Origin: a virus
Direction: 5' to 3' (one strand)
Length of the DNA: 42,852 bases
Virus record (IMG/VR): IMGVR_UViG_3300046683_000166
Location: 1 to 42,852 of that record
The notes under the pieces are model-generated. The model was not told where the DNA came from. It made no database searches and saw only the letters and a list, made by a program, of their open reading frames with translations. Below are positions 12,354 through 42,852 of this stretch, piece after piece (the first letter of the stretch is position 1; each line of letters opens with the position of its first letter). The translations under genes were made by a program, and so were the position numbers.

Positions 12354-12829
12354 TTCTGAACGATGGGACGCAATGGGAACCTAATGCGATAGAATTAACG
12401 TCATGGACGGCCGCATATCCTGGTATCGACGTGAAAAGTCAGATCAATCAGATCGCCGCATGGTGCTTATCGAACCCTAAGAACCGGAAAACGCCGGGTG
12501 GGGTTTCACGCTTCGTGAATTCCTGGTTGGCTCGAGCGCAGGATCAGTCAGGGAAGAACTCCAAACAGCCTGACGCGATCCCGCAACGGCGGGAACTCGA
12601 TGACTATGGGAACTTCATGTGCCACTGGCGGTTAGGGGAGCGGATGATCGAGGCGTTGTGGAATGAAGCCCCATTCGAGGCGCCAGACGGTCTGGCAGGC
12701 TATCAGCCGCGTTTTAACCTGAGGGGCATGTGTGAGTCGCTGGTACGCCAGGAAACGTCCCTAAGCGCTTGCTATGGCGGTTTCAATGCGACGTTGCAGA
12801 AGCATTGGAACGCGGTCGCGTCGAAGTGA
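12350..12829 (+). CDS. Replication initiator / helicase-loader-like phage protein (tentative)
   Basis: A 159-aa protein. The N-terminal block WEPNAIELTSWTAAYPGIDV then INQIAAWCLSNPKNRKTPGG and VSRFVNSWLARAQ resembles the C-terminal domain of phage replisome-organiser proteins ('W...YP.vdv..eL..m..Wl..nP.kRKt..gi.rFi.nWL.r'). The remainder is helical. If correct it would recruit host replication proteins at a phage origin. It carries no ATPase motif, so it would need the host helicase. Gene order (small basic protein, this gene, methyltransferase, nuclease) suits a replication module. Confidence 0.55.
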   Translation: MILNDGTQWEPNAIELTSWTAAYPGIDVKSQINQIAAWCLSNPKNRKTPGGVSRFVNSWLARAQDQSGKNSKQPDAIPQRRELDDYGNFMCHWRLGERMIEALWNEAPFEAPDGLAGYQPRFNLRGMCESLVRQETSLSACYGGFNATLQKHWNAVASK

Positions 12830-13524
12830 CGTTGGCGATCGATCTCTTTTGCGGTCTCGGTGGCTGGACTGAGGGTTTACTCGCTGAAGGTTACGATGTG
12901 ATCGGGTTCGACATCGAAAAGCATGAGTACGGCGACCACAAATACCCGGCGCAGTTGGTGATTCAGGACGTGCTGACACTGCATGGCTCGCAGTTCAAGA
13001 CCGCGGCGCTGGTTGTCGCGAGTCCCCCGTGTCAGGCATACAGCTACAGAGCGATGCCATGGAAGCGGGCCAAGGCGCTGCCGCCACCGGATAACACCTT
13101 GTTCGAGTCGTGTTTTCGGATTCAGCGTGAGGCTATCGAGGCTGCGGGTCATTTCATTCCGCTGGTGGTTGAGAACGTAAGGGGGGCACAGCCTTGGGTG
13201 GGGCGAAGTCGATGGAATTTCGGCTCATTCCATTTATGGGGTGACGTGCCGGCGTTGATGCCGATTGTTTCGGCGAGAAAGAACACAGGCGGTTCATGGT
13301 TCAACGTTGCGCACAACACGACGAGTGGGAAGGGTAAAAATCCAGACGGGCGCAAACAGCCGGGAATCGGTGGACAGCGCACCAACGGCAAGGGAGATTC
13401 ATGGTTCCAGGACGGCGCGGCAAGTCATGGCTCTAAGTCATCCGCCCGCAAAGCCGCAAGCGCAATGATTGCCAAAATTCCATTCGCGCTGTCATCGCAT
13501 ATAGCAAGAGCTTGGAAACCATGA
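12826..13524 (+). CDS. Orphan C5-cytosine DNA methyltransferase (Dcm family)
   Basis: About 232 aa from GTG 12826 (GTGA overlap). Motif I is LAIDLFCGLGGWTEGL, motif IV with the catalytic cysteine is VVASPPCQAYS, and motif VI is LVVENVRGAQPW. The C-terminal part is short for a C5 methyltransferase and has Gly/Lys/Asn-rich segments between the ENV motif and the end, so the target-recognition domain is small. No restriction enzyme gene is adjacent; it probably protects phage DNA against host restriction. Confidence 0.85.
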   Translation: MTLAIDLFCGLGGWTEGLLAEGYDVIGFDIEKHEYGDHKYPAQLVIQDVLTLHGSQFKTAALVVASPPCQAYSYRAMPWKRAKALPPPDNTLFESCFRIQREAIEAAGHFIPLVVENVRGAQPWVGRSRWNFGSFHLWGDVPALMPIVSARKNTGGSWFNVAHNTTSGKGKNPDGRKQPGIGGQRTNGKGDSWFQDGAASHGSKSSARKAASAMIAKIPFALSSHIARAWKP

Positions 13525-14155: not shown

Positions 14156-14356
14156 TTAATACGGCCCCTCTGATTCGAGAATTGTGCAGCGATCGATCGG
14201 ATAAGCTTCGCGTCCGTTGGGATGAACTGCGAGGATTCCAAAGCGGGTCTGATCGACGCGGATAGGGGTGAAGTAGACATCTGGAAAGCCGGCGTTGGAC
14301 TTGAATACAACCGGCTTGCCGACGAGTGACGCCGGCATCTTGTTATAGGGTTTCAT
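14156..14356 (-). CDS. Small protein of unknown function, coupled to the ArdC-like gene
   Basis: A 66-aa protein (MKPYNKMPASLVGKPVVFKS...) that looks like a small beta barrel with strands KPVVFKS, VYFTPIRVDQTRFGILAVHP and YPIDRCTIL. Its ATG overlaps the ArdC-like stop by four bases. It may be a partner of the antirestriction protein, which is inferred only from coupling. Confidence 0.55.
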   Translation of the reverse strand: MKPYNKMPASLVGKPVVFKSNAGFPDVYFTPIRVDQTRFGILAVHPNGREAYPIDRCTILESEGPY

Positions 14357-15225
14357 GCTGCGTCCGCCTCTTCTGTCGTTTCGATTGCGAGCGCTTGGAG
14401 TACCATGTCGGCAGCTGCTTGCGCTTTGCTGGCGGCGGTGAGGATTGCTTTAGAGTCGGACTTGAGAACCTTGATCCACGATGCGAGGTAGGACGCATGG
14501 TTAGGGACTTCATTGGAGTGACCCGTCACCGCGCCAATGAATGCTGCGCCGAGTTCTGCAACGAGTTCCTCGAATGCGTATGCGTGATCGCCGAAACGCG
14601 CGCCGAATTGCCGATCGAGTCGGGACTTAGCGCCGGTCGAGTGAATCGCTTCATGGGACAGAGTCGCGCAATACGCCCCTTCGTTGTCGAAGGACTCGAG
14701 GGTCGGCATCTGGATTCGATCGAATTGCGGCGCATAGAAGGCGCGGTCGCCGCCGTGTCCGATCGTGAGTCCGAGACCGCTAGCGATTGAATCGGCGAGT
14801 TGATGCCGCGACATGGGAGCGGAGGGCGCGTCGATAGCACCTTGGAGTGCTGACTTGTCACCCTCGCATTGATCCAGGTTGAGGACGTGATACACCTTGC
14901 AGAACATGCCGCGTTGTTCTTTCTCGGTGCCATCGTCGCCTTTCTCGGTGCGCGTGGTTGCCTGCCAGAACGTGATCTGGGTGCACTTCTGACCTTTGAT
15001 ATCGAGACCCGCTGCCATTGCCTGCCGGGGCGTTAGCCACCCGCAAGACTCTGATTTAAACGTCCAGATTTCATTTAGTTTATTGCGATATTCGCTCATG
15101 ACCGCGCGCGCGTGGAATTCGCAAGTTAGTACAATGCGATTGCCCGACGGGTCGCAGAGCCATCCGGTTGCTTTGTGATTAGTCGTGCGGCCTTGGCCGT
15201 CGTGGCAGTTTCCGGTGCAGTTCAT
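14353..15225 (-). CDS. ArdC-like antirestriction protein with zinc-metallopeptidase domain
   Basis: A 290-aa protein. Residues 45-115 match the ssDNA-binding DUF1738 part (GWLTPRQAMAAGLDIKGQKC then QITFWQ). The C-terminal half is a metallopeptidase of the MPTase-PolyVal type, with the zinc motif LSHEAIHSTG (HEAIH) and a downstream AFEELVAELGAAF third ligand. Usual ArdC proteins begin with a longer N-terminal ssDNA-binding region. Here the N-terminus instead has cysteine pairs (MNCTGNCHDGQGRTT, then WLCDPSGNRIVLTCEFH). ArdC proteins protect incoming single-stranded DNA from type I/II restriction. Confidence 0.82.
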   Translation of the reverse strand: MNCTGNCHDGQGRTTNHKATGWLCDPSGNRIVLTCEFHARAVMSEYRNKLNEIWTFKSESCGWLTPRQAMAAGLDIKGQKCTQITFWQATTRTEKGDDGTEKEQRGMFCKVYHVLNLDQCEGDKSALQGAIDAPSAPMSRHQLADSIASGLGLTIGHGGDRAFYAPQFDRIQMPTLESFDNEGAYCATLSHEAIHSTGAKSRLDRQFGARFGDHAYAFEELVAELGAAFIGAVTGHSNEVPNHASYLASWIKVLKSDSKAILTAASKAQAAADMVLQALAIETTEEADAA

Positions 15226-16935: not shown

Positions 16936-17001
16936 ATGGAACTGGTTGCACTATCTTTGAGCGATGACGCCTGTTTCAGAAATTTCAAAAAAACTCCCGA
17001 T

Positions 17002-19356
17002 ATGAATGTGACCAAATTTGTCACCTCCTTAGTTCTCTTCTTGATTACTGTGGGTGGATCGTTATCGGTTGATGCGGTGACGATCACTGCCAGTTCTGCG
17101 TTTGATACGAGGTGTTTCTCGCCTTTCCTCAAAGGTTCGGGGATGCCGGATTGGAACTTCAATAACAACTCTTTCGTGAGTTACAGCCTCCGCACCTTTG
17201 GGGCTGCGGGGGACGATCTGGTTACGCAGAGTCCGGTGTGCTCGGATGTGAATCCGGCGATCACGATCTCTGCGGGTGCCCTCCCTACTGGCACCACGCT
17301 CACTACCACCAACTTGAACAACGCTCTGATCTCGGGCACGCCGACCGGGACTGGTGCGGTGAACTTCACGGTCCGCTATGGCAACTCGGTCGGCGCTGCC
17401 GTCACTGATCCTGTTGGCGGTACTCTGACTGCGTCGGGTGGTGGGACGCCGATTCCGAATGGAACGGCGGCGGGGGTGACGCGTTTTGTCGATTGCAACG
17501 CTTCTGCTGGCGGCGGCGGCGCTGGAAACGACCTGTTGGACGGACAGACACCGGGCACGCCTTGGGGGACGTTGACGAAGGTTCAGGCGGCGCTCCCTGG
17601 ATTGGCTGCCGGAACTGATATATGGCTCAAAGCGGGGTCTACTTGTAGCGGTCAAACGGCAAGTTTCAAATTGAACGGTACTGGGACAAATGGTACTGCG
17701 ACAGACCCTGCCATTCTCGGCAGTTACTATGTTTCTGGCGGTGTGGCGTTTATCAATTCGCCGACGAACTACACTGTTTCTCGGCGACCCAGTGCCTATA
17801 CCTATACGTCTCCCCGTCCGAGGATTTTGGGCAGTTATCATCCCTCTTGCCGGCAGAGCAATGCGCTCAATACCTCTGCGAACAAATGCGCTTGGAACAC
17901 TGCTGGACATGCGATAGATCCCAATACAGGGACGCCGGGGACTGCCGTCCCTGCTGCGTATGGCGACTATCTGGTACAGGTCACGGGCAAATACCTCGTT
18001 GTGCAGGACCTCGATATTGAGGATTCCGCGGGTCGGACGCTAGGTGTTTTCCCAGACCCATCCACAGGCGCTAACTTTGGCTACTGCTTCTGGGATGTGC
18101 GTTGCGACGTATTTGGTTTTGTTCAGCGCAACAAGCTTGGCCATACACCGGAGGAGGGACTCCTGATATTTGGTGCGCATAACGTGGTGAGGCAGAACGA
18201 GTTCTTCCTGACCATCATGCGCTATGCGGATAGACCTACAGGTTTTCTGCTAGGGCAGGCGGGTGGGTCCGCGTTGGTTCACGCCTTCTGTGATCCATGC
18301 TATGGCTTGGACGAGGGGAATGACTTCTGGGGTGTGCTGGAAGCGATCGGCAATTACGGTGTTTCCGCCATTCTTGAGCGGGGCAACTGGGGCGGTTCCA
18401 GCTCTCGCGTCGGTTACTCGGCAAACCGTAACGCGAGCATGGTGTTCGAGCAGAATATCTGGGTGGGCGGCACCGCGGACTCGCTTGACCCGCTAGATCG
18501 AACGGCAAACGCGGGTGCTGAGGCAGGTGCTACCTTTTGGCCGTTCGGTAATGAGGGCGGGGCAGGTCCAATAGCCTTATCTGCATCTAATGGTGGCTAT
18601 TATCGCATTCTGACGGGTGGCGCCAGTAACGGCGACCAAGCGGGATCGAAAATAGTGCGCCGTAATAATGTCGCGCAGACAGTGGGTGAACGGTGTTTCA
18701 ACCAATACCTAGATATTGGCGGGTTTACCGACCAGAATCCGGCGCAACGGATTGCGACGACGGATGTGGGCAATACCTGCTTCACGGACCTGTACACCGA
18801 TTATATGGACTTCACGAACAATGTGTTGTCGCAGGTCAACTTCTATACCGCCAAGAATAACCTGTTCGTGGTCTCCAGCAGCCAGAGTTGTCTGCAGTAT
18901 CCGGGCACCGGGCAATTCACGTTCGACTACAACCAGTACACCATCTCGCCCACAGGCGCAGTCAATAACGGGGATGTCTGCAAGAGCGCGCATGACGTAA
19001 ACAGCGCCACCACTGGGCTGCCGGGTTCATTTAACTGGCACACGGCGAGTTGGTCCAGTTTCCCGGCTGAGTCGGACTTCCTGCCAAACAACACCGACCC
19101 TGGAAAGGCTGCGGGGTTGGCAATGACCGGAGCCATGTTTACCTATGCTGACCCCGTTTGGGGGCATGTCGATGGCTCTACGGGTGGCGGCGATTCATGG
19201 TGGGGTTGGGTATTGCGTCAGCGCGTTTGGCTGCCCGCATGCAACGTCTCGGGCGTTCAAGTCACGGAAGCCGAATGGAGCAAGTTGTTGACGACCGATT
19301 ATTGTGGTGAGGCGCGCACCACAATGACGATGGGCGCTAGGAATGCCTCACCATGA
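17002..19356 (+). CDS. Secreted beta-helix protein with Sec signal peptide
   Basis: The frame is open from ATG 16936 (806 aa), but ATG 17002 places a clean signal peptide at the N-terminus (MNVTKFVTSLVLFLITVGGS, cleavage probably near VDA). Neither start has a strong ribosome-binding site. Next comes an Ig-like putative domain (GALPTGTTLTTTNLNNALIS then GTPTGTG). From about residue 180 of the long form a right-handed beta-helix begins: VTRFVDCNASAGGGGAGNDL, PWGTLTKVQAALPG, IWLKAGSTCSG. Many paired cysteines and aromatic residues suit an extracellular protein. It lies just before a second signal-peptide giant and the fibre-adaptor-like gene. It could be a secreted depolymerase, an adhesin or a cell-surface decoration protein. 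Confidence 0.75.
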   Translation: MNVTKFVTSLVLFLITVGGSLSVDAVTITASSAFDTRCFSPFLKGSGMPDWNFNNNSFVSYSLRTFGAAGDDLVTQSPVCSDVNPAITISAGALPTGTTLTTTNLNNALISGTPTGTGAVNFTVRYGNSVGAAVTDPVGGTLTASGGGTPIPNGTAAGVTRFVDCNASAGGGGAGNDLLDGQTPGTPWGTLTKVQAALPGLAAGTDIWLKAGSTCSGQTASFKLNGTGTNGTATDPAILGSYYVSGGVAFINSPTNYTVSRRPSAYTYTSPRPRILGSYHPSCRQSNALNTSANKCAWNTAGHAIDPNTGTPGTAVPAAYGDYLVQVTGKYLVVQDLDIEDSAGRTLGVFPDPSTGANFGYCFWDVRCDVFGFVQRNKLGHTPEEGLLIFGAHNVVRQNEFFLTIMRYADRPTGFLLGQAGGSALVHAFCDPCYGLDEGNDFWGVLEAIGNYGVSAILERGNWGGSSSRVGYSANRNASMVFEQNIWVGGTADSLDPLDRTANAGAEAGATFWPFGNEGGAGPIALSASNGGYYRILTGGASNGDQAGSKIVRRNNVAQTVGERCFNQYLDIGGFTDQNPAQRIATTDVGNTCFTDLYTDYMDFTNNVLSQVNFYTAKNNLFVVSSSQSCLQYPGTGQFTFDYNQYTISPTGAVNNGDVCKSAHDVNSATTGLPGSFNWHTASWSSFPAESDFLPNNTDPGKAAGLAMTGAMFTYADPVWGHVDGSTGGGDSWWGWVLRQRVWLPACNVSGVQVTEAEWSKLLTTDYCGEARTTMTMGARNASP

Positions 19357-22300
19357 GGAATCTGCTAGCGTTATTCCTGCTCATCGCTTCGCCTGCATGG
19401 GCGGTTGACCTTTGTTCGGTCTCATCCATTGGTGCCCAAAGTGCTAATGGGACAACCAACTCGACAGTCACGCCAGCCTTGCCGGCCTCTTATGTGCCGG
19501 GGGATTTGTTGTTATTGCATTGGCATTCATGGCAAGGCGGCGCGATTTCATCGTCCGACCCAAGTGGTTATACGCTGATTGCGTCATCGTTCTCTCAACA
19601 TGAAATTTGGGGCAAGATTGCGGGTCCTTCTGAATCGGCGCCCTCTATAACGGCTGGTAGTGATGGCGTGGCCGGTTCGACCGCGCAGATTACGGCAATT
19701 CACAATCCATCCGGCTTCAAGATTTCATCGATTTTGGGTGATAGCAATACAGGGTTCAGTGCGGGTGAATCGGGTCTCGCTTACAAATTCCTGACGGTCA
19801 CCCAAGGCGGTGGTTGTGCGTTTCAGTTTGCTACATCCGACCTATTCACGGGATTGCCAAGTGCGCTTGCAGTGCAGTCGGGCTATGTGGCGGCGGGGTT
19901 TGCTGCGGGTATCGCTGGTGGCGGGGCTCCCGCCCTTGGCGGACAGATGTACAACGGAGACGCCACCACCCCGGACCTTGCGAACAACACCAACCTGTTC
20001 ACGGGCAATACAGAGGCTTTCTCGGACCTCCAGATTTCGCTAACGCTGCTCTCGGGTGATAACACGCCGACGACACCCAGTTTCACGGATAAGACCGGGC
20101 AGGCGATCAACACCCTGATTACAAGTTCCTCAGTGGTGTTAGCGGGGTTCGATAACTACACAAAGTTGGTGGTGGGTGCAGGCTCGGATTCGGGCTGTGC
20201 GTTCAGTCTAAACGGGGCGGCATACTCTTCCGCTACACAATATCCATTGGTGGGCGACACCCTCGCGGCTGAGGTTACGAGCGGCGGGGCAGCGACGACT
20301 AAGAATTGCGTCGCGACATTAGGCGACGGCACCACGGTTTCGGACACGTTCTCAGTCTCAACGAATGCTTCCGATACGACGGCTCCAACCTGTTCAGTAG
20401 CGCCTACGGCGGGCAGTACCAGCGCCTTTGGAACCACGGTCACGGCGACCTGTTCGGATGAAACGGACGCGACTGTCACCCATATTATTGGCGTCGTTGC
20501 TGATGGCGCATCCGCCCCTACCGGTGCCCAACTCGACGCCTGTTCCGGTGGTGGAATCATCGCCAGTTCCTGCGCGAGCGGCAGTCAGACCAACGGCGTC
20601 AGCAAATCCTTGACGACCCCGTCTGTGTTGAGTGCAGCGACCGCCTACGACGTCTACATGACCCAGAAAGATACGTCGAACAACTACAAGACACCCGTCA
20701 AGGTCGATGTGACCACCACCAACAGCGACCAGAACGTCCCGCTGTTACTTGTCGATCACTTCTCTGGCACCGATGGAACGCTGCTGACTGCTCCCCATGT
20801 ACCCAATGTGATCGCTGCCGGCACGGCGTATACCGCTCTCGGCACCTCGAGCACGTTCTTGAGCGGCAACAAGGCCGTCGTACCCGTCACGACCATTGCC
20901 CAGATCGACGTTGGCACCGCCCGTCACGTGTCCGATATTCAATGGACCGCCGCCGCGAACCAGATCATCTTATTGGGGATCAGAACACTCGATTCGACCA
21001 ACTACGTCGCCTGTTTCTTCGATGAAGCGGCCGATCTCGTCAAGCTCAATACGATCGTCAGCGGCGTGCAGACCGTGCTCGGATCTGCCGCCGTCCCCTT
21101 CGTTGCGGGAAATACCTATCGATTGACCGCGAATGCCACACCCGGCGATGTCCTGGGCTGTGCGGTAGACGGCGTCGAGAAGGTGACGGTTGCCACCAGC
21201 GCCTTCAATACGTCCACCTTCGTCAGTATCGGCAACCTCGGCAGCGGGCAGGCAACTTTCGATGATTGGTATGTCCATCTCGCCTATGACGCACTGAACT
21301 CGTCCGGCTTTGTTCCTGATGACCCCAACGGTATCCTGCAGGGGTTACAAATTGGTAACGGAAGTGCCTTCTACGTCAAACCCGGCAGCGATCCGACGAC
21401 GATCTGTTCGATTTACTCGTTCTATTCCGGCGGTTCGCTCTACTGCGTGCCTCAGAGTGGGACGACGACGATCAACATGGAACTGTTGAATACGACGTCG
21501 AATACGCTCTCGACTATACCGCTCACGATCATCAATCCGGGTGGTGGCGCAGTCGCCCCGGTATTGAATGCGATCCCCGATGAGACGGTGACGATCAACA
21601 TCGATCCGGGTCCGCGTGATCTGACCGCCTTCTTGACCGCCGGCCAACCCGCTCCGACATGGTCGTTGACTGCCGGTTATGACACGGCGACGGGTCAACT
21701 CTGTCCGGGGAGGATTCTGAGCGTCTCCGGTAACGTGTCCGGCATCTGTACGGTCCCCGGCACCTATGCAGTGACCGCGAAAGCCCTCAATGCCAGCGGA
21801 AATGCGACCCGTTCGTTCAATGAGGTCGTCCAAGCCGACACCACGCCGGACCCCTTCAGTTTCACCGATATCTTCAACGTCGGCGTCGGCACGTCACAGG
21901 TCACTAATCCCTGTGTGACCATTTCCGGTGCCAATTACACGATGACGACGACGATCAGTGCTGGCACCTGGACGAAGAATGGCGGCGCGCCAAGCGGTGC
22001 CGGCGGGACGGCCGTCAACGGCGATGTGATCTGTCTGCAAGGGACCGCCTCGGGCAGCACCGGAACCGCTGTCAATGCCGTCTTTTGTGCCGGCGGCGTC
22101 TGCGATACCTGGACCATCATCACCAACCCGGACGTCGATCCGACACCGATCTCGTTCACCCCGCATTCCAATGTCTTGCCATCGTCAACCGTCACCTCGA
22201 ACTGTCAGGACATCGCGGGCATCAGCGCCGGATCGACTGTCAGCATCCTGTTGAGTTCGGGTAAGTGGACCAAGAACTGTTCGGCCGCCCAACCGACCTA

Positions 22301-23039
22301 TACGACGGCATCAGCCGGGACCGCGACGCTCGGCGACAGTATTGGCCTGCAGCATACCGCCTCTGCGAGTCACAGTTCCCCGACGGTGCAGACTCTCACC
22401 TATGGCAACCGTACCGCCACGTTCGTCAGTGTGACGGATTCCGGCACCGCGCCGACGTGTTCCGCGATCGATCCGGTTTCGGGCAATGTCGGCAACGTGT
22501 TCCTGATGGACTTGAACAACCATTCGACAGGTGTCTTGCAGTTCACCGCCTCGCCATTGCCGGGTGGAATCACGGCATCCGGTGGCATCTTGAGCGGCAT
22601 CTTTAATGCCATCACCAGTCCGACGTTGACGACGAATGTGATCGGCAGCAACAACTATGGCAGTTGCACGACGTCGATCGCCTTCACCGTGCAGAACCTG
22701 CAGGCGCATTGCGATGACATCCCGCTGCAGACCAAACACATCAACGATGCGGTCAACATCGACCTCAACCTCTGGTGCACCAACGCGATCAGTTACACCG
22801 CGACTCCGTTGCCGGCCGGCTTGACGTTCATCTCACCGAAGATTGTCGGCACGGTGACGACCGTCGGCCCGGTGACGACGACGATTCAAGCAGCGAATAC
22901 AGCGAACACTTTCTCAGGCACCCTCTCTTGGAACATACTGACGCCGGAAGGCACCGACCAGACCATTGGTTCCACGCCCGGCGACACGAATGGGGCCACC
23001 GGCGACAAAGGTCATACCGTACCGAGTGAAAAACATTGA
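19353..23039 (+). CDS. Giant multi-domain Ig-like protein with Sec signal peptide
   Basis: A 1228-aa protein, the largest in the genome, overlapping the previous stop (ATGA). Signal peptide MRNLLALFLLIASPAWA is followed by VDLCS. Domains: an N-terminal phage-fibre-like beta domain (residues 20-230), Ig-like modules with cysteine pairs (SDTTAPTCSVAPTAGSTSAF; later AAPVLNAIPDETVTINI; PTCSAIDPVSGNVG; AHCDDIPLQTKHINDAVN), and a LamG-like jelly-roll (LLVDHFSGTDGTLLTAPHV to ATFDDWYV). Such arrays usually bind carbohydrate or project from surfaces. A Sec signal on a protein placed next to structural genes is unusual, because virion proteins assemble in the cytoplasm. Confidence 0.75.
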   Translation: MRNLLALFLLIASPAWAVDLCSVSSIGAQSANGTTNSTVTPALPASYVPGDLLLLHWHSWQGGAISSSDPSGYTLIASSFSQHEIWGKIAGPSESAPSITAGSDGVAGSTAQITAIHNPSGFKISSILGDSNTGFSAGESGLAYKFLTVTQGGGCAFQFATSDLFTGLPSALAVQSGYVAAGFAAGIAGGGAPALGGQMYNGDATTPDLANNTNLFTGNTEAFSDLQISLTLLSGDNTPTTPSFTDKTGQAINTLITSSSVVLAGFDNYTKLVVGAGSDSGCAFSLNGAAYSSATQYPLVGDTLAAEVTSGGAATTKNCVATLGDGTTVSDTFSVSTNASDTTAPTCSVAPTAGSTSAFGTTVTATCSDETDATVTHIIGVVADGASAPTGAQLDACSGGGIIASSCASGSQTNGVSKSLTTPSVLSAATAYDVYMTQKDTSNNYKTPVKVDVTTTNSDQNVPLLLVDHFSGTDGTLLTAPHVPNVIAAGTAYTALGTSSTFLSGNKAVVPVTTIAQIDVGTARHVSDIQWTAAANQIILLGIRTLDSTNYVACFFDEAADLVKLNTIVSGVQTVLGSAAVPFVAGNTYRLTANATPGDVLGCAVDGVEKVTVATSAFNTSTFVSIGNLGSGQATFDDWYVHLAYDALNSSGFVPDDPNGILQGLQIGNGSAFYVKPGSDPTTICSIYSFYSGGSLYCVPQSGTTTINMELLNTTSNTLSTIPLTIINPGGGAVAPVLNAIPDETVTINIDPGPRDLTAFLTAGQPAPTWSLTAGYDTATGQLCPGRILSVSGNVSGICTVPGTYAVTAKALNASGNATRSFNEVVQADTTPDPFSFTDIFNVGVGTSQVTNPCVTISGANYTMTTTISAGTWTKNGGAPSGAGGTAVNGDVICLQGTASGSTGTAVNAVFCAGGVCDTWTIITNPDVDPTPISFTPHSNVLPSSTVTSNCQDIAGISAGSTVSILLSSGKWTKNCSAAQPTYTTASAGTATLGDSIGLQHTASASHSSPTVQTLTYGNRTATFVSVTDSGTAPTCSAIDPVSGNVGNVFLMDLNNHSTGVLQFTASPLPGGITASGGILSGIFNAITSPTLTTNVIGSNNYGSCTTSIAFTVQNLQAHCDDIPLQTKHINDAVNIDLNLWCTNAISYTATPLPAGLTFISPKIVGTVTTVGPVTTTIQAANTANTFSGTLSWNILTPEGTDQTIGSTPGDTNGATGDKGHTVPSEKH

Positions 23040-30173: not shown

Positions 30174-31130
30174 ATGGCCAACGTCCCACGCGCCCCCTTA
30201 TTTTCTAGGTTAGCAGTACCCGCCCTAGCGGCGGTATTGGTTGCCCCCAACCTCATACCGCTGCTGTCCTCGACCAAACCGTTCAAACAGAACGATTGGC
30301 CGAATCCACAGGTTGCGAAGCAGCCCTACCGCAATGACACGCGGGGGATGCCCGTCACGTTGCTGCTCAACGGCAACCCCGGCCGACCGCAGAGCGAATG
30401 GCCGAATCCCAGACTGGCGCCACAACCCGATCGCACGCGAGACAGCCAATCGTCACCGCTGGCGCTGCTGTCGGGGCCGATATCCAAGCCATTTAGCCAA
30501 ACCCACTGGCCGAATCCGCAACAGGTCAAGGTTGCCTTTCAGGACGGCAACGACCCAATGCCGCTCACGCTGTTGCAGGTGGGTGCGCCCTTTGCGCAGC
30601 GTGATTGGCCGTTACCTAAGATCGCGCCTCGAGGATCTGGTGATAGTCGTGGGATGCCGCAGACATTGCTCAATGTCGGCGCACCCTTCCATCAAACCGA
30701 TTGGCCCAACCCGAGAGGGCCGGTTCCGCTCAATGTCGGCACATCCGCTGTGGGTATGCCGACCACATTGCTCAATGTCGGCAAGCCGTTCGCCCAGACC
30801 GACTGGCCACTCGCGATTGCCGCCAAATGGCCCGATCTCGGACTCAGTTACAACTCACCGATCGTTCTCACGCAGACTGTAGCTGGCACACCATTACGCC
30901 CGTTCGATTGGCCAAACCCGCGACAACCGGCATTCGCGGATGTGTCGTTCATCGTCACTCCGTATCCCGACAACATCCCGCCGGCCATCATTCCGCCGGT
31001 CATCGTTGCGCCACCGGATACGTCAGGAACCGGCGGGTATCTGACGCGCCGCGATCTGCAGATCATCCAGATTCGTCGGGATGACGAAGATTTGATCAAA
31101 ATCCTCAGCAAGATGTTTGGAGTCGATTGA
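30174..31130 (+). CDS. Tandem-repeat protein with DWPNP motif
   Basis: A 318-aa protein. A hydrophobic N-terminus (LFSRLAVPALAAVLVAPNLI PLL) is followed by about seven repeats of 30-36 residues, consensus PF.Q.DWPNP....(20).RGMP.TLLNVG. Copies begin at about residues 35, 70, 105, 140, 170, 205 and 245. The end is a Pro-rich linker (IPPAIIPPVIVAPPDTSGTG) and a charged helix (QIIQIRRDDEDLIKILSKMF). Repeat proteins of this type are known in phages as putative structural components; the function is unknown. It directly precedes the scaffold promoter. Confidence 0.65.
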   Translation: MANVPRAPLFSRLAVPALAAVLVAPNLIPLLSSTKPFKQNDWPNPQVAKQPYRNDTRGMPVTLLLNGNPGRPQSEWPNPRLAPQPDRTRDSQSSPLALLSGPISKPFSQTHWPNPQQVKVAFQDGNDPMPLTLLQVGAPFAQRDWPLPKIAPRGSGDSRGMPQTLLNVGAPFHQTDWPNPRGPVPLNVGTSAVGMPTTLLNVGKPFAQTDWPLAIAAKWPDLGLSYNSPIVLTQTVAGTPLRPFDWPNPRQPAFADVSFIVTPYPDNIPPAIIPPVIVAPPDTSGTGGYLTRRDLQIIQIRRDDEDLIKILSKMFGVD

Positions 31131-32058: not shown

Positions 32059-33318
32059 ATCGCTAACACGATCCTGACGCCGTTGGTCATCACGCAGGAA
32101 GCCCTGCGGATTCTCCACGGCAAACTCTCTTTCCTCGGTAACGTCTCGCGCCAGTACGACAATCGTTTTGCCAACGAAGGTGCGAAGATCGGTTCGCTGC
32201 TCAACATCCGTATGCCGGCAAAGTATACGGTCAGAACCGGCGCGAGCGCGTCGTTCCAAGACCATGTTGAACGCTCCACGCCGTTGACGATCACGACCCA
32301 AGTGGGCGTTGACGTGTCGTTCACCACCTTCGACCTGACTCTGTCACTCGATGACATCTCGAATCGAATCCTGACCCCGGCGATGAGCCAACTGGCAGCA
32401 TTCATCGAAAACGACTGCCTGACGGCTGCGAAGAACCTGACGTACCAGTACAACGGTACGACCACGACTTCCGGCCAGATGACATTCGCGCAGATGGATG
32501 AAACCGGCGCAATCCTGACGCGTCAGCTCGCTCCCTATGGCAATCGCGTCGCACTGCTCGATCCGACCTCGCGCAACAACTTCAACGTTGATGTGAAGGG
32601 TCTGTTCCAGTCGTCCGACAACATTCGCGAGCAATACCGCGAAGGCATGATGGGCCGCACCTCGGGCTACGATGTGTATGAATCGACGTTCCTGCCGACG
32701 CATACCACCGGCACCTTCGCTGGCTCACCGTTGACCACGACCGGCACCACGGCGATCGGTTCGTCCACGACATCGAATGCCTGGGTCTCGGGAACCACGG
32801 TTTGGATCGACGGTGCCACCGCACTGACGACTCTGACCGCGGGCGACATCATCACGATTTCCGGTCTGTACGATGTGCACCCGGAGACCAAGGTGACGAC
32901 CGGCATCCTGAAGCGGTTCGTAGTCCAAGCCAACATCACCCTGACCACAGCGACGTCGTCTTATGGCGTGTCGGTACGTCCGGGCATCATGTTCGGTTCG
33001 GGTAACGCCTATCGCAACGTGCTGCTGTCGGGTCCAGCCAACATGGACAACAACACCGTCACCCTGATCGGCAACGTAGGCACGACCTACGGTCAGAACC
33101 TGATGTTCGCGAAAGACGCCTTCGTCTTTGCGACCGCAGACCTGATCGACGTCTCGCAGTACGGTGCCTGGGGTGCTCGCGCTGTCCAAGATGGAATCTC
33201 GATGCGGATCGGTCGGCAGTGGGCGCTCTCCACTGACACCGTGCCGACTCGGATCGACATCGCCTATGGCTTTGCGGATCTCTATGCAGAGAACGCCGTG
33301 CGCCACTGGCACACCTGA
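32059..33318 (+). CDS. Major capsid (coat) protein, P22 type, with apparent ATC start
   Basis: A 419-aa protein. The sequence after ATC 32059 (I-ANTILTPLVITQEALRIL) matches the usual N-terminus of this family, M-ANT.LTP..i...AL.iL. No ATG, GTG or TTG occurs in frame between the upstream stop (32044) and TTG 32083, which would lose ANTILTP. AGGAAG (32045-32050) is well placed for ATC 32059. Core: NRFANEGAKIGSLLNIRMPA KYTVRTGA, later TTFDLTLSLDDISNRILTPA, a Thr-rich insertion-domain region, and a C-terminal RIDIAYGFADLYAENAVRHW. Confidence 0.85.
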   Translation: MANTILTPLVITQEALRILHGKLSFLGNVSRQYDNRFANEGAKIGSLLNIRMPAKYTVRTGASASFQDHVERSTPLTITTQVGVDVSFTTFDLTLSLDDISNRILTPAMSQLAAFIENDCLTAAKNLTYQYNGTTTTSGQMTFAQMDETGAILTRQLAPYGNRVALLDPTSRNNFNVDVKGLFQSSDNIREQYREGMMGRTSGYDVYESTFLPTHTTGTFAGSPLTTTGTTAIGSSTTSNAWVSGTTVWIDGATALTTLTAGDIITISGLYDVHPETKVTTGILKRFVVQANITLTTATSSYGVSVRPGIMFGSGNAYRNVLLSGPANMDNNTVTLIGNVGTTYGQNLMFAKDAFVFATADLIDVSQYGAWGARAVQDGISMRIGRQWALSTDTVPTRIDIAYGFADLYAENAVRHWHT

Positions 33319-33339
33319 TCCCTGAACAGGGATGCTATG

Positions 33340-33364
33340 GGGGGTGGCAACACCCCCTTTTTTT
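33340..33364 (+). terminator. Intrinsic terminator after the coat gene
   Basis: GGGGGTG (33340-33346), loop GCAA, CACCCCC (33351-33357), followed by seven T (33358-33364). It is the strongest intrinsic terminator in the window. A second small hairpin, ATCCCT-GAAC-AGGGAT (33318-33333), begins at the coat stop codon and might protect the mRNA. Confidence 0.92.
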
Positions 33365-33383
33365 AACCAAGGAGAGGGAAAGC

Positions 33384-34310
33384 ATGATTGAAGAACCGGA
33401 ACGCCGACTCGGTGCGAGACATCGAGGCCCGGAGGTTCGCAGCAAGGTTTTTATCGCAACACCGGCCTATCAAGGGAAAGTCGATTCCGACTTCGCAATG
33501 TCGTTGGCCGATACCTGCATGATGGCATCGACGCGAGGGATCGGCGTCGTCGCCAGCGTCATGGGCAATGGCGCATTCATCGAGTTATCACGCAATCAGT
33601 TCGTCAAGATCTTCCTCGACACCGATTGCACGCACCTGTTTTTCATCGACGCCGACCTGCGATGGGAGGCTCGCGCCTTCTGCGGTCTGGTCGAAGGTTG
33701 TACGCCTGAACGTCCGGTGGTCGCGGGTGCCTATCGCCGCCGCCAGCCGAAAGAGGACTATCCAATCCGCTATTGGGAAGATGCCGCTGAACCCGGCTTG
33801 ACGTTTGTCGATGGCGGATGGGTGCTCTGCGAACGGGTCGCGACGGGCTTCCTCTGTATCCATCGCTCGGTCGTCGTCGAGATGGCAAACGAAGCGCGGC
33901 TGCTGCATGTCCCGATGTGGGGGGATGCGCCGGAACTGTTCTATACCCAGGATGTTCCGATGATGCCGGAAGAGACCAAGATGGACATGGCGGCATGGAA
34001 TGCCATGTTGGAGCGCAAGCGCGAACTCGAGCAGGAGATCGAGGATCTGGAAAAGACCCTATCGAACGGCAAATGGCTGTTCATGGGTGAGGATATCTCG
34101 TGGTGTGACGACTACGTCCACAAATATAAGAAGTATATCCACGTCTGGCCCGACTTCGACTTCATCCACGCCGGACTGCATTGCAACTGGCGCAAATTCA
34201 TCCTGAAAGAGTTGGCGAGTGACGCCAAGGAAGAACAGGAACGGTTGGAGCGAGAGGAAGCAAAGCTCAAACTCATGGAAAGCAAAGAGAGGGTGGCAAA
34301 CGGTGAGTAA
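33384..34310 (+). CDS. GT-A-type glycosyltransferase
   Basis: A 308-aa protein with AAGGAGAGG before ATG 33384. VFIATPAYQGKVDSDFAMSL at residues 22-41 forms the nucleotide-sugar region, LFFIDADLRW includes a DxD-like metal motif (IDAD, 88-91), and a GEDISWCDDY motif then DFDFIHAGLH correspond to the late acceptor and catalytic segments of GT-A enzymes. Insertions at about 205-235 and 275-308 are charged coiled coils. It should transfer a sugar from a nucleotide donor to an unknown acceptor, possibly coat protein, DNA or a small molecule. First of four coupled genes. Confidence 0.78.
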   Translation: MIEEPERRLGARHRGPEVRSKVFIATPAYQGKVDSDFAMSLADTCMMASTRGIGVVASVMGNGAFIELSRNQFVKIFLDTDCTHLFFIDADLRWEARAFCGLVEGCTPERPVVAGAYRRRQPKEDYPIRYWEDAAEPGLTFVDGGWVLCERVATGFLCIHRSVVVEMANEARLLHVPMWGDAPELFYTQDVPMMPEETKMDMAAWNAMLERKRELEQEIEDLEKTLSNGKWLFMGEDISWCDDYVHKYKKYIHVWPDFDFIHAGLHCNWRKFILKELASDAKEEQERLEREEAKLKLMESKERVANGE

Positions 34311-34881
34311 CGTCTACGTGGTCGAGCAGGGTGTCGAGAAGTTCAAGCCGACAGTGAAGTTGGGACATGAGTTGCTGATCGGTTGCGGCAACAATCGACG
34401 GAAGTTGCTGGATGAGAACGGCAAGCCGGAATGGAAGGATCTCGTCACGTTGGATATGGATGCGGCCTGCGAGCCGGATATCGTCTGGGATCTGACCCAC
34501 TTTCCCTATCCGATTCCCGATGCGTCATTCATGGAGATTCATGCGTACGAGGTCCTCGAGCATATCACCGGGTTCGTCGGTGACTTCCGGTCGTTCTTTA
34601 AGCCGTTCATCGAGTTCTGGCGTATTCTGAAACCGGGCGGTCTGCTCTGTGCGACGGTGCCGATCTGGGATTCGGTCGGCGCATTCGGCGATCCGGGGCA
34701 TGGCCGTATCATCAATGCGATGACGCTGTCGTTCCTGTGTCAGACGATCTACGAGCGTGACGTCGGGGTGAATACGCCGATGACCGATTATCGGGCGTGG
34801 TTCCCGCGACCGAATGACTTCAACATCATCGAATGTCACGAAGTGAATCAGCGATTTTGCTTCGTCTTACAGAAACAGTAG
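34303..34881 (+). CDS. SAM-dependent methyltransferase (class I)
   Basis: A 192-aa protein from GTG 34303, overlapping the glycosyltransferase stop. Motif I is LLIGCGNNRRK, an acidic strand-2 end is LVTLDMDAACEPDIVWDLTH, motif IV-like EVLEHI and post-IV RILKPGGLLCATVPIWDSVG. It belongs to the Methyltransf_11-like group often found in glycan-modifying clusters. The substrate is unknown. Its end overlaps the radical SAM gene by 49 bases. Confidence 0.78.
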   Translation: MSNVYVVEQGVEKFKPTVKLGHELLIGCGNNRRKLLDENGKPEWKDLVTLDMDAACEPDIVWDLTHFPYPIPDASFMEIHAYEVLEHITGFVGDFRSFFKPFIEFWRILKPGGLLCATVPIWDSVGAFGDPGHGRIINAMTLSFLCQTIYERDVGVNTPMTDYRAWFPRPNDFNIIECHEVNQRFCFVLQKQ

Positions 34882-35702
34882 ACAAGCGACTCAACTGGCT
34901 TAGGGACAACTACCTAGATCAACCGGCTGAGATAGCGATCGAGACGCAGGCGGTCTGTAACGCCGCCTGCACGTTCTGCCCCTACCCGACGCTCGAGCGG
35001 ATCGGCACCAAGATGCCGACCGAAATGCTCTATGCGCTGGTCGATCAGACGCGGGATTGGAAACCGTTCTTTTTCACCCCGTTCAAGGTGAACGAGCCGT
35101 TACTCGACAAACGGCTCTATCCGCTGCTGCGCTACGTCAACAAGCATGTTCCTCAGGCGACCGTTAGGATCTTCACCAACGGGTCGCCGCTGACACTCGA
35201 TTGGGCGGAAAAGTTACACAATATCGACAACCTCGAGTTGTACATCTCGCTCAACAGCCACCGGAAAGCGGAGTACGAGCCGCTGATGGACCTGAACTTC
35301 GATCGCACGATCAAGAACATCGACGCACTGCACGCCTCCGACTTCCGCCATCCGGTGAACATCCTGAAGGTGGGCAGGGACATCCCGTTCGCGCAGTACG
35401 TGCTCGATCGCTGGCCCTACTTCGAGCCGCTGTTGATCAAACGCGATGCGTGGCTCGGGTTCACCAACAGCGATAATTTGGAAGTTCCCGATCATGGCTG
35501 TGCGCGCTGGTTCGAGTTGTCTATTATGGCGACTGGAAAGGCCGCGCTCTGCTGCATGGACTCGACCGGCGAACATGGTTTGGGCGGCGATGTGACGAAG
35601 CAGACGTTGCTCGAGGTATACAATATGCCGGTCTGGCGTGAACGTAGAGAGCAGATGTTGAACCGCAAACTGGTTCCGACTTGTCAGGGATGCACCTACT
35701 GA
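34833..35702 (+). CDS. Radical SAM protein with SPASM-like C-terminus
   Basis: A 289-aa protein. IAIETQAVCNAACTFCPYP carries the [4Fe-4S] motif CxxxCxxC at Cys42, Cys46 and Cys49. The barrel continues with FKVNEPLLDKRLYPLLRYV and VRIFTNGSPLT (the usual 'TNG' strand). Late cysteines HGCARWFE, ALCCMDST and CQGC could ligate auxiliary clusters as in SPASM proteins. Such enzymes modify peptides, sugars or other molecules. It begins inside the methyltransferase gene, which points to coordinated synthesis. Confidence 0.82.
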   Translation: MSRSESAILLRLTETVDKRLNWLRDNYLDQPAEIAIETQAVCNAACTFCPYPTLERIGTKMPTEMLYALVDQTRDWKPFFFTPFKVNEPLLDKRLYPLLRYVNKHVPQATVRIFTNGSPLTLDWAEKLHNIDNLELYISLNSHRKAEYEPLMDLNFDRTIKNIDALHASDFRHPVNILKVGRDIPFAQYVLDRWPYFEPLLIKRDAWLGFTNSDNLEVPDHGCARWFELSIMATGKAALCCMDSTGEHGLGGDVTKQTLLEVYNMPVWRERREQMLNRKLVPTCQGCTY

Positions 35703-36091
35703 TGGTCTATGCCTTCGACTTCTGGAATACGCTGTATCCGATGAACGACGCGGCCAGACGTCAATGCGCGATGATGCAGGGTCTTGTCTCTGCGCTCCAT
35801 GACAGCGGCAATGAGATCCATATCGTGTCGGCAATCTCACCGGGGCTGCCATTGGATAACGACGAAGCCTATGCTCGGATGTTGGGTGAGATCAACGTGC
35901 CGTTCACCAAGATCCATCGCGTCGATCACGTACCGGCGTTAAAGGTCGAAGTCCTCAAGCGAATCGGTGCCGGTGGTTTCTGGGACGATTCTGAAGTCAA
36001 TGTCATCGCGGCGAGAGAGGCCGGCATCCCAAGCAACCACGTCGGTATCGACGCTGACATCATGCAGATATTCTGTTTGGAGCAATCATGA
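35702..36091 (+). CDS. HAD-like small protein, altered motif I
   Basis: A 129-aa product from ATG 35702 (overlapping the radical SAM stop). MVYAFDFWNTLYPM takes the place of the HAD motif DxDGT, with Trp instead of the second Asp. Motif II-like strand EIHIVSAIS and motif IV-like GFWDDSEVNVIAAREAGI follow. Loss of the acid/base Asp suggests weak or different phosphatase activity or a regulatory role. It completes the four-gene cassette and is coupled to the gp4-like gene (ATGA). Confidence 0.65.
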   Translation: MVYAFDFWNTLYPMNDAARRQCAMMQGLVSALHDSGNEIHIVSAISPGLPLDNDEAYARMLGEINVPFTKIHRVDHVPALKVEVLKRIGAGGFWDDSEVNVIAAREAGIPSNHVGIDADIMQIFCLEQS

Positions 36092-36480
36092 CGACTTACA
36101 GGGATCTGATCACCCGCTCCATGCGTCACCTCGGTGTGGTGCAACTGAATCAGGCACCGACTCCCCAAGAGATGGCCGACGGACTCGCCGCCATGAACGA
36201 CATGTTGAACTCGTGGCGGATGGATGGGATCGATCTCGAGTACGTAGAAGCCACTAGCGTCAACAACGATGTACCGTATCCGCAAGATCACATGGCGGCG
36301 TTTCAGTACAACTTGGCCGCATGGCTCGCGCCGATGTATGGCAAGAAGGTGCCAGATGTGATCGTTGGACTGGCTGGCAAGACCTATCACGATCTACAGG
36401 TCTGGTATTCCGACCCGCACAACCTGACGGTCGATGTCGCACTGCAACCCCTGGTGACCAACAACCTGATGTTCCGATGA
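36088..36480 (+). CDS. Head-closure / tail accessory factor, P22 gp4-like
   Basis: A 130-aa protein: TYRDLITRSMRHLGVVQLNQ APTPQEMADGLAAMNDMLNS WRMDG, a well-conserved N-terminal pattern of P22 gp4-type adaptor proteins ('..l...al..l.v...g..p...e...al..lN.ml..w...g'). A PYPQDHMAAFQYNLAAWLAP segment follows. gp4 binds below the portal after packaging to stop DNA leakage. P22 gp4 is 166 aa. Confidence 0.8.
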   Translation: MTTYRDLITRSMRHLGVVQLNQAPTPQEMADGLAAMNDMLNSWRMDGIDLEYVEATSVNNDVPYPQDHMAAFQYNLAAWLAPMYGKKVPDVIVGLAGKTYHDLQVWYSDPHNLTVDVALQPLVTNNLMFR

Positions 36481-38429: not shown

Positions 38430-38923
38430 TGACTGACGGCACGGGTTGGTTTCCATCTGCCGAGTTAGGGCGCGTCCTGCCGAATACGGTAGTCGATGCG
38501 CTGCGGCAGACTAAGATCAATGCCGAGACAAAGGCACTCGACAAGAGTTATGAAGTTCGCAGCGATGGGGCCGGCGTGTTCGCGGCGAATACGACTGATC
38601 TCGACGTGCAGTTCTTCTACAACAACCGGGAAGTCGCGACCCGCACGATTCACGGCGTGCTGAATACGACGACCGGCGAGTTCACACTTTCGAGCACTGC
38701 GTTCACCGGCGAGTTGACCGTTGTCGATTACTACGGGACGACCTCGAGCAATGTCGGCGATAGCGTGCGCGCGGATGTCACGCATGTGAAATCAAAGAAA
38801 ACCGGATTCGCGTCGTTCGTTGCGAAGGATATGTCGGTCGGCGGTTCGACGCCGAGTGTGATCACGGATGGGGGTGGTGGTGGTGACTTCCCACCGGGTG
38901 GGGGTGGCGGTGGGTCTAAGTAG
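38429..38923 (+). CDS. Beta-rich protein with Gly-rich C-terminus
   Basis: A 164-aa protein (MTDGTGWFPSAELGRVLPNT...). The region DLDVQFFYNNREVATRTIHG then FTLSSTAFTGELTVVDYYGT looks like a small beta-sandwich. The C-terminus is a glycine-rich tail (GGGGDFPPGGGGGGSK) made of GGT/GGG repeats. That DNA also encodes the N-terminal Val-rich part of the next frame. It may be a tail-needle or head-fibre type protein; this is uncertain. Confidence 0.58.
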   Translation: MTDGTGWFPSAELGRVLPNTVVDALRQTKINAETKALDKSYEVRSDGAGVFAANTTDLDVQFFYNNREVATRTIHGVLNTTTGEFTLSSTAFTGELTVVDYYGTTSSNVGDSVRADVTHVKSKKTGFASFVAKDMSVGGSTPSVITDGGGGGDFPPGGGGGGSK

Positions 38924-39362
38924 CGACATCACACCACCCGATCAGCCGGTCCCGGTAGATCCGCCGCCATTGACATTGCGAGCGGCGACCTATGACGATC
39001 GAACCTGGATGTATGAAGCCTATAAGACGTGGCCGAATCCAAAGGATTTCATCTCGGAGGAGACGGTCTACCGATTCCTACGACGCTGGATCGAGCGCGG
39101 GCAACCGACCTGTAAGGTGGCTGAGGCGGATGGCATTCCAGTGGGGCTGATCACCTACCAGACAAACCTATTCGTCTGTTGGGTCTACAATGTTCTCGTC
39201 GTGCCGGAACACCGTGGCAAAGGCTATTTCAAGCAGATGGCGATGAGTGTCAGGGATGATCTGGTCGCACAAGGGGTGGTGGTGGCGAAGTTCCAGACGC
39301 TACCCGGTCCGATCGAAGGTCGATACGAAGATGATGTGGTCACCCCGGACACGATATTTTGA
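38868..39362 (+). CDS. GNAT-family N-acetyltransferase
   Basis: A GNAT fold from about residue 35: LTLRAATYDDRTWMYEAYKT, then IPVGLITYQTNLFVCWVYNV LVVPEHRGKGYFKQM with the acetyl-CoA pyrophosphate loop (R-G-K-G-Y). ATG 38868 gives 164 aa but overlaps the previous gene by 56 bases; GTG 38910, after a G-rich stretch, would give about 150 aa and is equally possible. It may acetylate a protein, an amino sugar or another host molecule. Its position between virion genes suggests that it is co-expressed late. Confidence 0.72.
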   Translation: MGVVVVTSHRVGVAVGLSSDITPPDQPVPVDPPPLTLRAATYDDRTWMYEAYKTWPNPKDFISEETVYRFLRRWIERGQPTCKVAEADGIPVGLITYQTNLFVCWVYNVLVVPEHRGKGYFKQMAMSVRDDLVAQGVVVAKFQTLPGPIEGRYEDDVVTPDTIF

Positions 39363-41630: not shown

Positions 41631-42852
41631 TGGACGTTAGGTTGCCGAATGGGACGGTGATCCGAAACGTCCCCGACCACTATAAACAGGTCGATGTTGC
41701 TGGTCTGGCGATCAGGAACAAGTTGGCAACCCCCGACGACTTTCCAGACATCCAAGACGTCGCCAACGCGCCTAGTATGCAGATGAAGCCTGATCAGCCA
41801 CAAGGCTCGGCGCTCGGTGCGGTCGCGGAGAACGCCGCATCGATCGACTCGCGCGCTCTGCTAACGATTCCAGCCGGTCTCGTTGGTCTCGGTCGCACCC
41901 TCTATGGATCTGCAACTGGTGAATCACCCGACGTTGCCGATAGTGCAGGCGGCGAGGCAGTTCGTCAGATGTTGTCTCTCGGCTACACACCCAAGACCGT
42001 TCAGGGGCAGGCGGTTCAGTCAGCGATTGCAGCGCCATTCGTGAAGGGCGGCGATGTCGCACTCGAATATGGCGGTCCCAAGGCGAAACTCGCATTCGAT
42101 GTCGCCTCGCAGCTCGCGCCGGTAGGTAAGGTCTTTGGCGCGAAGGCTGTTGGTGCAGCGACCAAATCCGCTGCGGCTGCGGAAGCTAAGTCCGCCATGT
42201 TGGATACCGTCAGCAAGGATGTTCCGCTCGAAAGTCAGATTAATCAGGCGAGCCAAGATCTCGTCAGCAATCTGGGTGGTTCGAGTAGCGCGCAGTATGA
42301 CGCTGCACTGAAGAAATCCAACACCGATCGGATTGAGTCGATCAAATCTGCGGAGGGGCCAAAGTATGATCAAGTCCGCGCGGCAATCAGTAACAAATAC
42401 ACGGTCCCTGGCGAAACGTATCAATATCTGCAAGACAGACTGAAGCAGGTTGGCGGCAACGTCGATGCGCTTTCAGCCGGCGAAAAGAAACTCAAGACGA
42501 CACTAGAAAACAATCCCACGTTCGTCAGCGTCGGCGGGCAACCACAGGCGATGGTGACGTACGGTGTGATCGATTCGCTGCGCAAACAGTTCGGTAAGAA
42601 ATACTCGAACGATCCCGAGTTCGCGACAGCGGATACCGCGCAACGCGATGCGATCTATGGTGCATTGAGTCGCGATCAGACAACTGCGGCGAAGGCGGCG
42701 GGTGTCGGCGACGTGTTGGATCAGGCGCATGTTCTGACCAAGGCGCGGAAAGCAATCGAGACTTCGCATTATGCGTTATTCGATAAGGATGCGGTTGGAT
42801 CAGCGGTTCCCAAGATCGAGGCGGCAGCGCGCGGTTTGCAAGCCGGCGACAT
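41630..42852 (+). CDS. DNA-ejection / internal virion protein 3, partial (continues at 1-579)
   Basis: It starts at ATG 41630, sharing its A with the previous TGA, and is open to the window end (407 codons). Through the overlap it continues to TGA 577-579, giving 550 aa. MDVRLPNGTVIRNVPDHYKQ VDVAGLAIRNKLATPDDF is a usual opening of phage internal proteins ('..lPnG..i.nvP....'). A membrane-active-looking stretch (LLTIPAGLVGLGRTLYGSAT) follows. The remainder is Ala/Lys-rich helix. The position corresponds to P22 gp16, which crosses the inner membrane at DNA entry. Confidence 0.8.
   Translation, partial: MDVRLPNGTVIRNVPDHYKQVDVAGLAIRNKLATPDDFPDIQDVANAPSMQMKPDQPQGSALGAVAENAASIDSRALLTIPAGLVGLGRTLYGSATGESPDVADSAGGEAVRQMLSLGYTPKTVQGQAVQSAIAAPFVKGGDVALEYGGPKAKLAFDVASQLAPVGKVFGAKAVGAATKSAAAAEAKSAMLDTVSKDVPLESQINQASQDLVSNLGGSSSAQYDAALKKSNTDRIESIKSAEGPKYDQVRAAISNKYTVPGETYQYLQDRLKQVGGNVDALSAGEKKLKTTLENNPTFVSVGGQPQAMVTYGVIDSLRKQFGKKYSNDPEFATADTAQRDAIYGALSRDQTTAAKAAGVGDVLDQAHVLTKARKAIETSHYALFDKDAVGSAVPKIEAAARGLQAGD
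42702..42852. repeat. Terminal redundancy, right copy
   Basis: A 151-base copy of 1-149. It has two extra bases (GC) after GTGTCGGCGACGTGTTGGAT CAGGC that keep the ejection-protein frame open, so this copy is the more credible version. Confidence 0.9.

Follow-up and report, generated by a model that had tools for sequence, protein, structure and literature searches.

A coat-linked glycosyltransferase and methyltransferase cassette, often joined by a radical SAM enzyme, as a candidate virion-decorating system of uncultured P22-type phages

Here, we propose that a gene cassette at positions 33384–36091 of the uncultured viral record IMGVR_UViG_3300046683_000166 (the window, meaning all 42,852 nucleotides of the record) may decorate the virion of the phage that carries it. 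The cassette encodes a glycosyltransferase (GT), a class I S-adenosylmethionine (SAM) methyltransferase (MT), a radical SAM enzyme (rSAM) and a HAD-like protein, and it fills the interval between a P22-type coat gene and a gp4-like head-tail adaptor gene. It is nearly certain that selection maintains the cassette as a functional unit within its clade, and a sugar-modifying function is plausible from the families to which its proteins appear to belong. The fuller proposal, to which we give an even chance, is that the cassette acts late in infection, glycosylating a protein of the virion head and methylating or oxidising the sugar, with enzyme classes (the HAD-like protein apart) and a linkage that the sequences establish, and a target, donor and chemistry that we infer.

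Two coat searches of IMG/VR yielded about 157 loci, some contigs of the coat clade being the same phage from different samples (L009/L093/L094 and L091/L096). Among the coat-selected loci of the same clade with an intact coat-to-gp4 interval, the GT is present in 23/23, the MT in 21/23 and the rSAM in 12/23; all three occur together in 12 intervals (one of them with the HAD-like gene), the GT and MT in nine, and the GT by itself in two. The linkage to P22-type coat genes that the first-pass annotation of this DNA proposed to test is thus strongly borne out. The GT is missing from L114, L168 and L140, which lie on the margin of the coat group (coats 46–52% identical). Around more distant P22-type coats (300–450 bits), the 105 intact intervals hold a GT in nine cases and a sulfotransferase in six, the remainder being mostly occupied by small genes or empty, so that the annotation's view of P22-type maps as having nothing of the kind here is right for most distant phages and wrong for the coat clade. 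In a coat tree of 61 rows, a 35-row clade (support 100/100) bears the GT throughout; many of these rows came from the rSAM search described below, so that for rSAM an unbiased count is given by the coat-selected loci only. On this tree the rSAM label changes at least four times and has therefore been gained or lost repeatedly. Since the rSAM is variably present and the HAD-like gene a private addition, the earlier description of a four-enzyme cassette fits the genome studied and not the system, whose core is GT plus MT.

A search with the rSAM alignment only, independent of the coat, recovered 65 loci, of which 62 (L169–L230) were counted. In 44 of these, coat and/or gp4 genes adjoin the rSAM, usually in the order coat-GT-MT-rSAM-gp4; eight further loci place it beside terminase or portal, and L213 beside a major head protein. 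An MT is within reach of the rSAM in 56/62 loci. Loci L209, L210, L211, L214 and L220 carry the terminase large subunit (TerL), rSAM and MT in either order, the portal and, last, a major head protein from a different family (phrog_1328), while L175 has MT-rSAM-GT after a T7-type portal and L226 reads MT-sulfotransferase-rSAM-MT-GT. As the MT and rSAM recur together in unrelated head-gene contexts, the pair moves as a unit, and this mobility is the best evidence that the job of the two enzymes belongs to the late or head phase and not to one coat family. Variant orders were also seen (L217 3–755; L218 3718–4349; L204 4206–5254), with the rSAM before scaffold and coat or just past the portal, and with a duplicated MT.

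In the window, the four open reading frames have the order, strand and overlaps first read from the letters alone. The P22-type (gp5-like) coat gene (32083–33318, + strand; PF11651 E 3.7e-29, phrog_283 E 1.3e-55) is followed in the coat/GT gap by a strong terminator-like hairpin with a run of seven T (33339–33366, +). Then come, all on the + strand, the two core genes, GT (33384–34310, 308 amino acids) and MT (34303–34881, 192 amino acids, GTG start), the accessory rSAM (34833–35702, 289 amino acids), the private accessory HAD-like gene (35702–36091, 129 amino acids) and the gp4-like adaptor gene directly behind (36088–36480; phrog_637 E 4.5e-16, PF11650 exactly at cut-off). Neighbouring genes overlap by 8 bases (GT/MT), 49 bases (MT/rSAM; 25 if the rSAM starts at the in-frame TTG at 34857), 1 base (rSAM/HAD-like) and 4 bases (HAD-like/gp4-like), and the cassette indeed sits after the coat terminator and is coupled to the gp4-like gene. 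The GT-MT and MT-rSAM junctions lie between -8 and +20 bases in nearly all of 25 loci, and the recurrence of gene order and coupling, seen in tens of loci, is far beyond chance. The cassette is unlike a recent foreign insert, since its G+C content (0.54–0.57) is the same as that of the flanking DNA.

Ratios of nonsynonymous to synonymous substitution rates (dN/dS) are 0.03–0.28 for the GT, MT and rSAM and 0.00–0.32 for the coat (all pairs with usable dS), and the catalytic motifs, whose loss in relatives the first-pass annotation had allowed for, are invariant there. Pairwise distances correlate with those of the coat at r 0.83 for the GT, 0.75 for the MT and 0.66 for the rSAM, the gp4 adaptor serving as a control at 0.60; the cassette has therefore been inherited mostly with the coat, with some exchange. 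Recombination at the GT is indicated by its divergence under identical coats: the GT genes of L009 and L092, whose coats are identical, differ with a dS of 0.5, and among L009, L092 and L093, again with identical coats, the GT falls locally to only 77–92% nucleotide identity. Terminator-like hairpins unrelated in sequence follow the coat in 13/31 other loci of the clade (14/32 including the phage studied), a recurrence suggesting selection for expressing the enzymes at a low level compared with the coat.

The GT has no match in Pfam and matches phrog_1574 (E 7.7e-14). Its AlphaFold2 (AF2) model, built with 29 relatives in the alignment, has a GT-A (Rossmann-like) fold (pLDDT 89), and nearly all its PDB matches have GT-A or nucleotidyltransferase-like folds. 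Among solved structures, the closest in fold is A197 of Sulfolobus turreted icosahedral virus (STIV; E 1.6e-7), which was recovered independently by a profile-sequence search (E 1.8e-4), and the next are the GT domains of LH3, mimivirus R699 and collagen galactosyltransferase. Viral GTs linked to the glycosylation of capsids are among the fold neighbours (STIV A197 and the capsid GT of Paramecium bursaria chlorella virus 1, PBCV-1), and template-modelling (TM) scores against viral GT-A proteins reach 0.66/0.81. Residues R70, D89 and D91 (with the DxD metal motif at D89/D91) are kept in 37/37 relatives, and D237 and H262 in 36/36. By class, the protein is a GT-A glycosyltransferase, which would transfer a sugar from an activated donor. 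Its relatives among 50,697 annotated phage records are mostly distant.

With Methyltransf_11 (PF08241) the window's MT scores 17.6 bits, below the cut-off of 21.2, and the MTs of relatives (L166, L214 and L226) score above it; the conserved residues comprise G27 and G29 of the glycine-rich SAM loop, D51, E86 and H87. Profile and motif together make this a class I SAM methyltransferase of the Methyltransf_11-like kind. The rSAM is above cut-off for both PF04055 (E 1.8e-12) and SPASM (PF13186, E 6.4e-7). Its CX3CX2C core (C42, C46 and C49) is invariant in relatives, as are the C-terminal cysteines C223, C240, C241, C284 and C287, and the protein ends after C287. Because the C-terminus supplies four auxiliary-cluster cysteines (C223, C240 or C241, C284 and C287) and stops directly after this CxxC, we assign the enzyme to the twitch type (a truncated SPASM), presumably with one auxiliary cluster and not the two of a full SPASM domain. 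The initial label of radical SAM/SPASM-like is thus sound as to the radical SAM class and too broad as to a full SPASM domain, twitch-type and nearest to BtrN being the better description. BtrN, a twitch radical SAM dehydrogenase of butirosin synthesis that oxidises an aminocyclitol (2-deoxy-scyllo-inosamine) (PMC9012708), is the best match both by profile (E 1.4e-11) and by fold (E 1.5e-9), and the C240 region and C284–C287 align with it; EpeE/YydG, a peptide epimerase, is next, followed by SuiB. The alignment points to homology with BtrN, for which we do not claim orthology. Since the predicted rSAM model is poor at the cluster loops (pLDDT below 50), no active-site argument is drawn from it. 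Almost no relatives of the rSAM were found among the 50,697 records.

These matches also bear on whether the rSAM and MT might act directly on a side chain of a head protein, in a maturation like that of ribosomally synthesised and post-translationally modified peptides (RiPPs), with the GT performing a separate or later step. SuiB, EpeE/YydG and anSME are near the rSAM by fold, EpeE also by sequence profile, and the MT and rSAM occur between TerL and portal without a cassette-type GT, all of which would suit such a role. We nevertheless consider it improbable, as the cyclitol-acting BtrN is the best match by both measures and no precursor peptide or leader-like small open reading frame was noticed in the slot.

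As to the fourth protein, the reading frame and the motifs DFWNT (in FDFWNTL) and FWDD (in FWDDSE), seen by eye, stand, the second Asp of motif I being replaced by Trp, and the superfamily name given at first pass gains no support from profiles: no HAD profile matched at E ≤ 1 in Pfam or NCBIfam, save a weak 5-nucleotidase match (E 0.23), and no HAD protein was matched among PDB sequences. Elsewhere the gene occurs only in contig L002, which is 99.9% identical to this phage. An apparent relative in L232 (41% over 46 amino acids) was discounted because its frame looks spurious.

How might such a cassette work? Read-through past the coat terminator would, judging from the map, supply modest amounts of enzyme during head assembly. 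With a nucleotide-sugar of the host as donor, the soluble, cytoplasmic GT-A enzyme would then glycosylate a residue in one of the head proteins, the coat being the simplest choice, and the MT would cap either the sugar or the acceptor with a methyl group. Where present, the twitch rSAM might oxidise or epimerise a carbon of the sugar or of the carrier residue in the manner of BtrN, and the HAD-like gene of the phage studied might contribute a further, optional step. The particle would end up with a modified glycan that changes its surface and could thereby affect adsorption, environmental binding, or recognition by the host or others.

Several observations weigh against a virion-decorating role. 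The TM-scores of the GT to capsid GTs are low (0.28–0.40, by query length), homologues of the GT occur in early or DNA-metabolism regions of other phages (MW202753 and MW202825), and the coats that come with a GT have no conspicuous residue that would be their specific acceptor. W234, N308 and S358, the only consistent differences between GT-bearing and GT-lacking coats, are no more than a lead, since nothing marks them as sites. The slot also accepts an HNH endonuclease (L104) and beta-rich proteins, and with such unrelated inserts it could be a general cargo slot, whose neighbourhood alone cannot name the target. In L104 the HNH endonuclease gene (8083–8520) is inserted between GT and MT, and therefore the cassette can be a homing target.

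In another P22-type clade (support 100/100), the coat-to-adaptor slot holds a PF00685 sulfotransferase (L055 9257–10108, L136, L141, L144, L149 and L155), which has no relative among the 50,697 phage records. Given this clade and the sulfotransferase-bearing array of L226, we regard the slot as a host for group-transfer enzymes. The slot could instead be a permissive one and the cassette its cargo, selfish or metabolic, unlinked to the virion and serving auxiliary metabolism or small-molecule synthesis, as the unrelated inserts of other P22-type phages would allow. The nucleotide-sugar synthesis families PF00483 and PF01370 are absent from the genome; donor sugars are therefore assumed to be host-derived, and the absence itself counts in favour of cargo. 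On the other side, the cassette is strictly retained throughout the coat clade, has diverged along with the coat and is under strong purifying selection, all of which leaves cargo hardly probable.

At least one carrier of the cassette is a prophage: L166, with coat-GT-MT-rSAM-gp4, lies in a contig of a metagenome-assembled genome (MAG) of an uncultured Woeseia (Woeseiaceae). Behind its phage region come a tyrosine-integrase-like gene and, after it, galU-, rpsA-, aroA-, serC-, gyrA-, nusA- and infB-like housekeeping genes (names read by eye from the translations), with a fall in G+C from about 0.53 to 0.46. It is thus likely that at least some phages of the clade have a marine or aquatic gammaproteobacterial host. 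Lysogeny also raises the alternative that the enzymes modify the host cell surface (lipopolysaccharide, O-antigen or capsule precursors) late in infection or in lysogeny, for superinfection exclusion or receptor masking. GT and MT pairs of such a general type are common in O-antigen loci, and the divergence of the GT between L009 and L092 under identical coats, which suggests exchange or diversification, would also fit. Unlike phage O-antigen conversion (gtr) cassettes, with their membrane flippase, bactoprenol GT and polytopic membrane GT, however, this one has neither a flippase nor a membrane GT, and none of its four proteins has a transmembrane segment (maximum 19-residue hydropathy ≤1.32). 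Moreover, its place is after the coat terminator, within the late head block, and not with lysogeny genes, and its MT and rSAM are also found between terminase and portal in unrelated phages. We therefore hold a surface target to be rather unlikely.

The window's ends (1–149 and 42702–42852) match over 149/151 bases with a 2-base indel, and the genome is therefore probably complete and circularly permuted, at about 42.7 kb; an exact-repeat test would score it as linear owing to the indel. Hypermodification of the phage's DNA bases or nucleotides has to be weighed as well: there are phage GTs that act on modified bases, radical SAM enzymes take part in some hypermodification pathways, and other phages carry distant homologues of the GT in their early regions. 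Yet the cassette is in the head block and not among replication genes, and unlike DNA hypermodification pathways this apparently complete genome has no member of the thymidylate synthase/hydroxymethylase family (PF00303, absent in a profile search with positive controls). PF18723 is likewise absent from the genome, in a search that had no positive control. DNA as the target seems to us very unlikely.

Returning to virion decoration, a more specific version can be put forward tentatively, although we think it less probable than its negation: a head-operon module in which the rSAM and MT would equip the particle with an unusual glycan, oxidised or epimerised, methylated and perhaps, among relatives, sulfated, which would be the first radical-SAM modification of a virion, with interchangeable tailoring enzymes in a dedicated coat-adjacent slot.

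Elsewhere in the window, a 318-residue protein (30174–31130) has about six WPNP/WPLP-type repeats (PFxQxDWPNPR) and no PHROG match; it was rejected as an rSAM substrate because the repeat gene was found in none of the other fetched loci. Two adjacent, very large open reading frames (806 and 1228 amino acids; 16936–23039) with signal-like N-termini lie upstream of the terminase and have no PHROG, Pfam or NCBIfam match. A Zincin-like metallopeptidase (14353–15225, - strand; PF18818 E 7e-44) with a weak ArdC N-terminal match possibly has an anti-restriction role, and the early region encodes a C5-cytosine DNA methylase-like protein (12769–13524; PF00145). The tail region includes a GNAT acetyltransferase (38868–39362), and an acetyltransferase-like reading frame is similarly placed in the Woeseia prophage (L166 17552–17974) and in Xanthomonas phage PBR31.

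Few systems are known in which the particles of tailed phages are glycosylated. If our proposal is true, phage heads in nature are commonly decorated, and with a richer chemistry than has been supposed, and the conserved coat-linked GT and MT (with or without rSAM) of many uncultured P22-type phages offers a specific gene set, with the Woeseiaceae, known here from a MAG, as one natural host lineage in which to look for the modification. No paper describing the combination of GT, MT and rSAM in a head operon was found in the searchable literature; the radical-SAM-bearing head-operon module thus appears to be undescribed, while phage virion glycosylation itself is known.

Among known systems, BtrN shares with the cassette rSAM the CX3CX2C core and matching auxiliary cysteines and differs in belonging to a cellular antibiotic pathway with different partners, overall identity being about 16%. 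The uncultured podovirus MW202691 (ctkAd229) resembles the cassette-bearing phages in having a coat, a GT (annotated "polysaccharide biosynthesis"; 35% identical to the cassette GT over 55%) and a P22 tail accessory factor. Unlike them, it fuses the GT to a different class I MT, lacks an rSAM and has an endonuclease between coat and GT. In STIV, the major capsid protein B345 is glycosylated and A197 is essential (PMC10551542). A197 is, as the cassette GT is predicted to be, a soluble GT-A viral enzyme; it differs in coming from an archaeal virus with an unrelated capsid, in having no known MT or rSAM partners and in that its own acceptor is unproved. The cluster F1 mycobacteriophages Che8 and Rita have phage GTs and glycans covalently attached to the major capsid protein (Freeman et al. 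2023, cited in PMC11256854), and the GTs of Maravista lie near the 3' end of its genome (PMC11256854), whereas our cassette occupies the coat-gp4 slot together with an rSAM, a partner not mentioned there. Capsid type and host differ too, and the GT has only a weak fold link to Ardmore Gp87. STIV and the glycan-bearing mycobacteriophage capsids are the strongest precedents for reading the cassette as a virion-glycosylation system.

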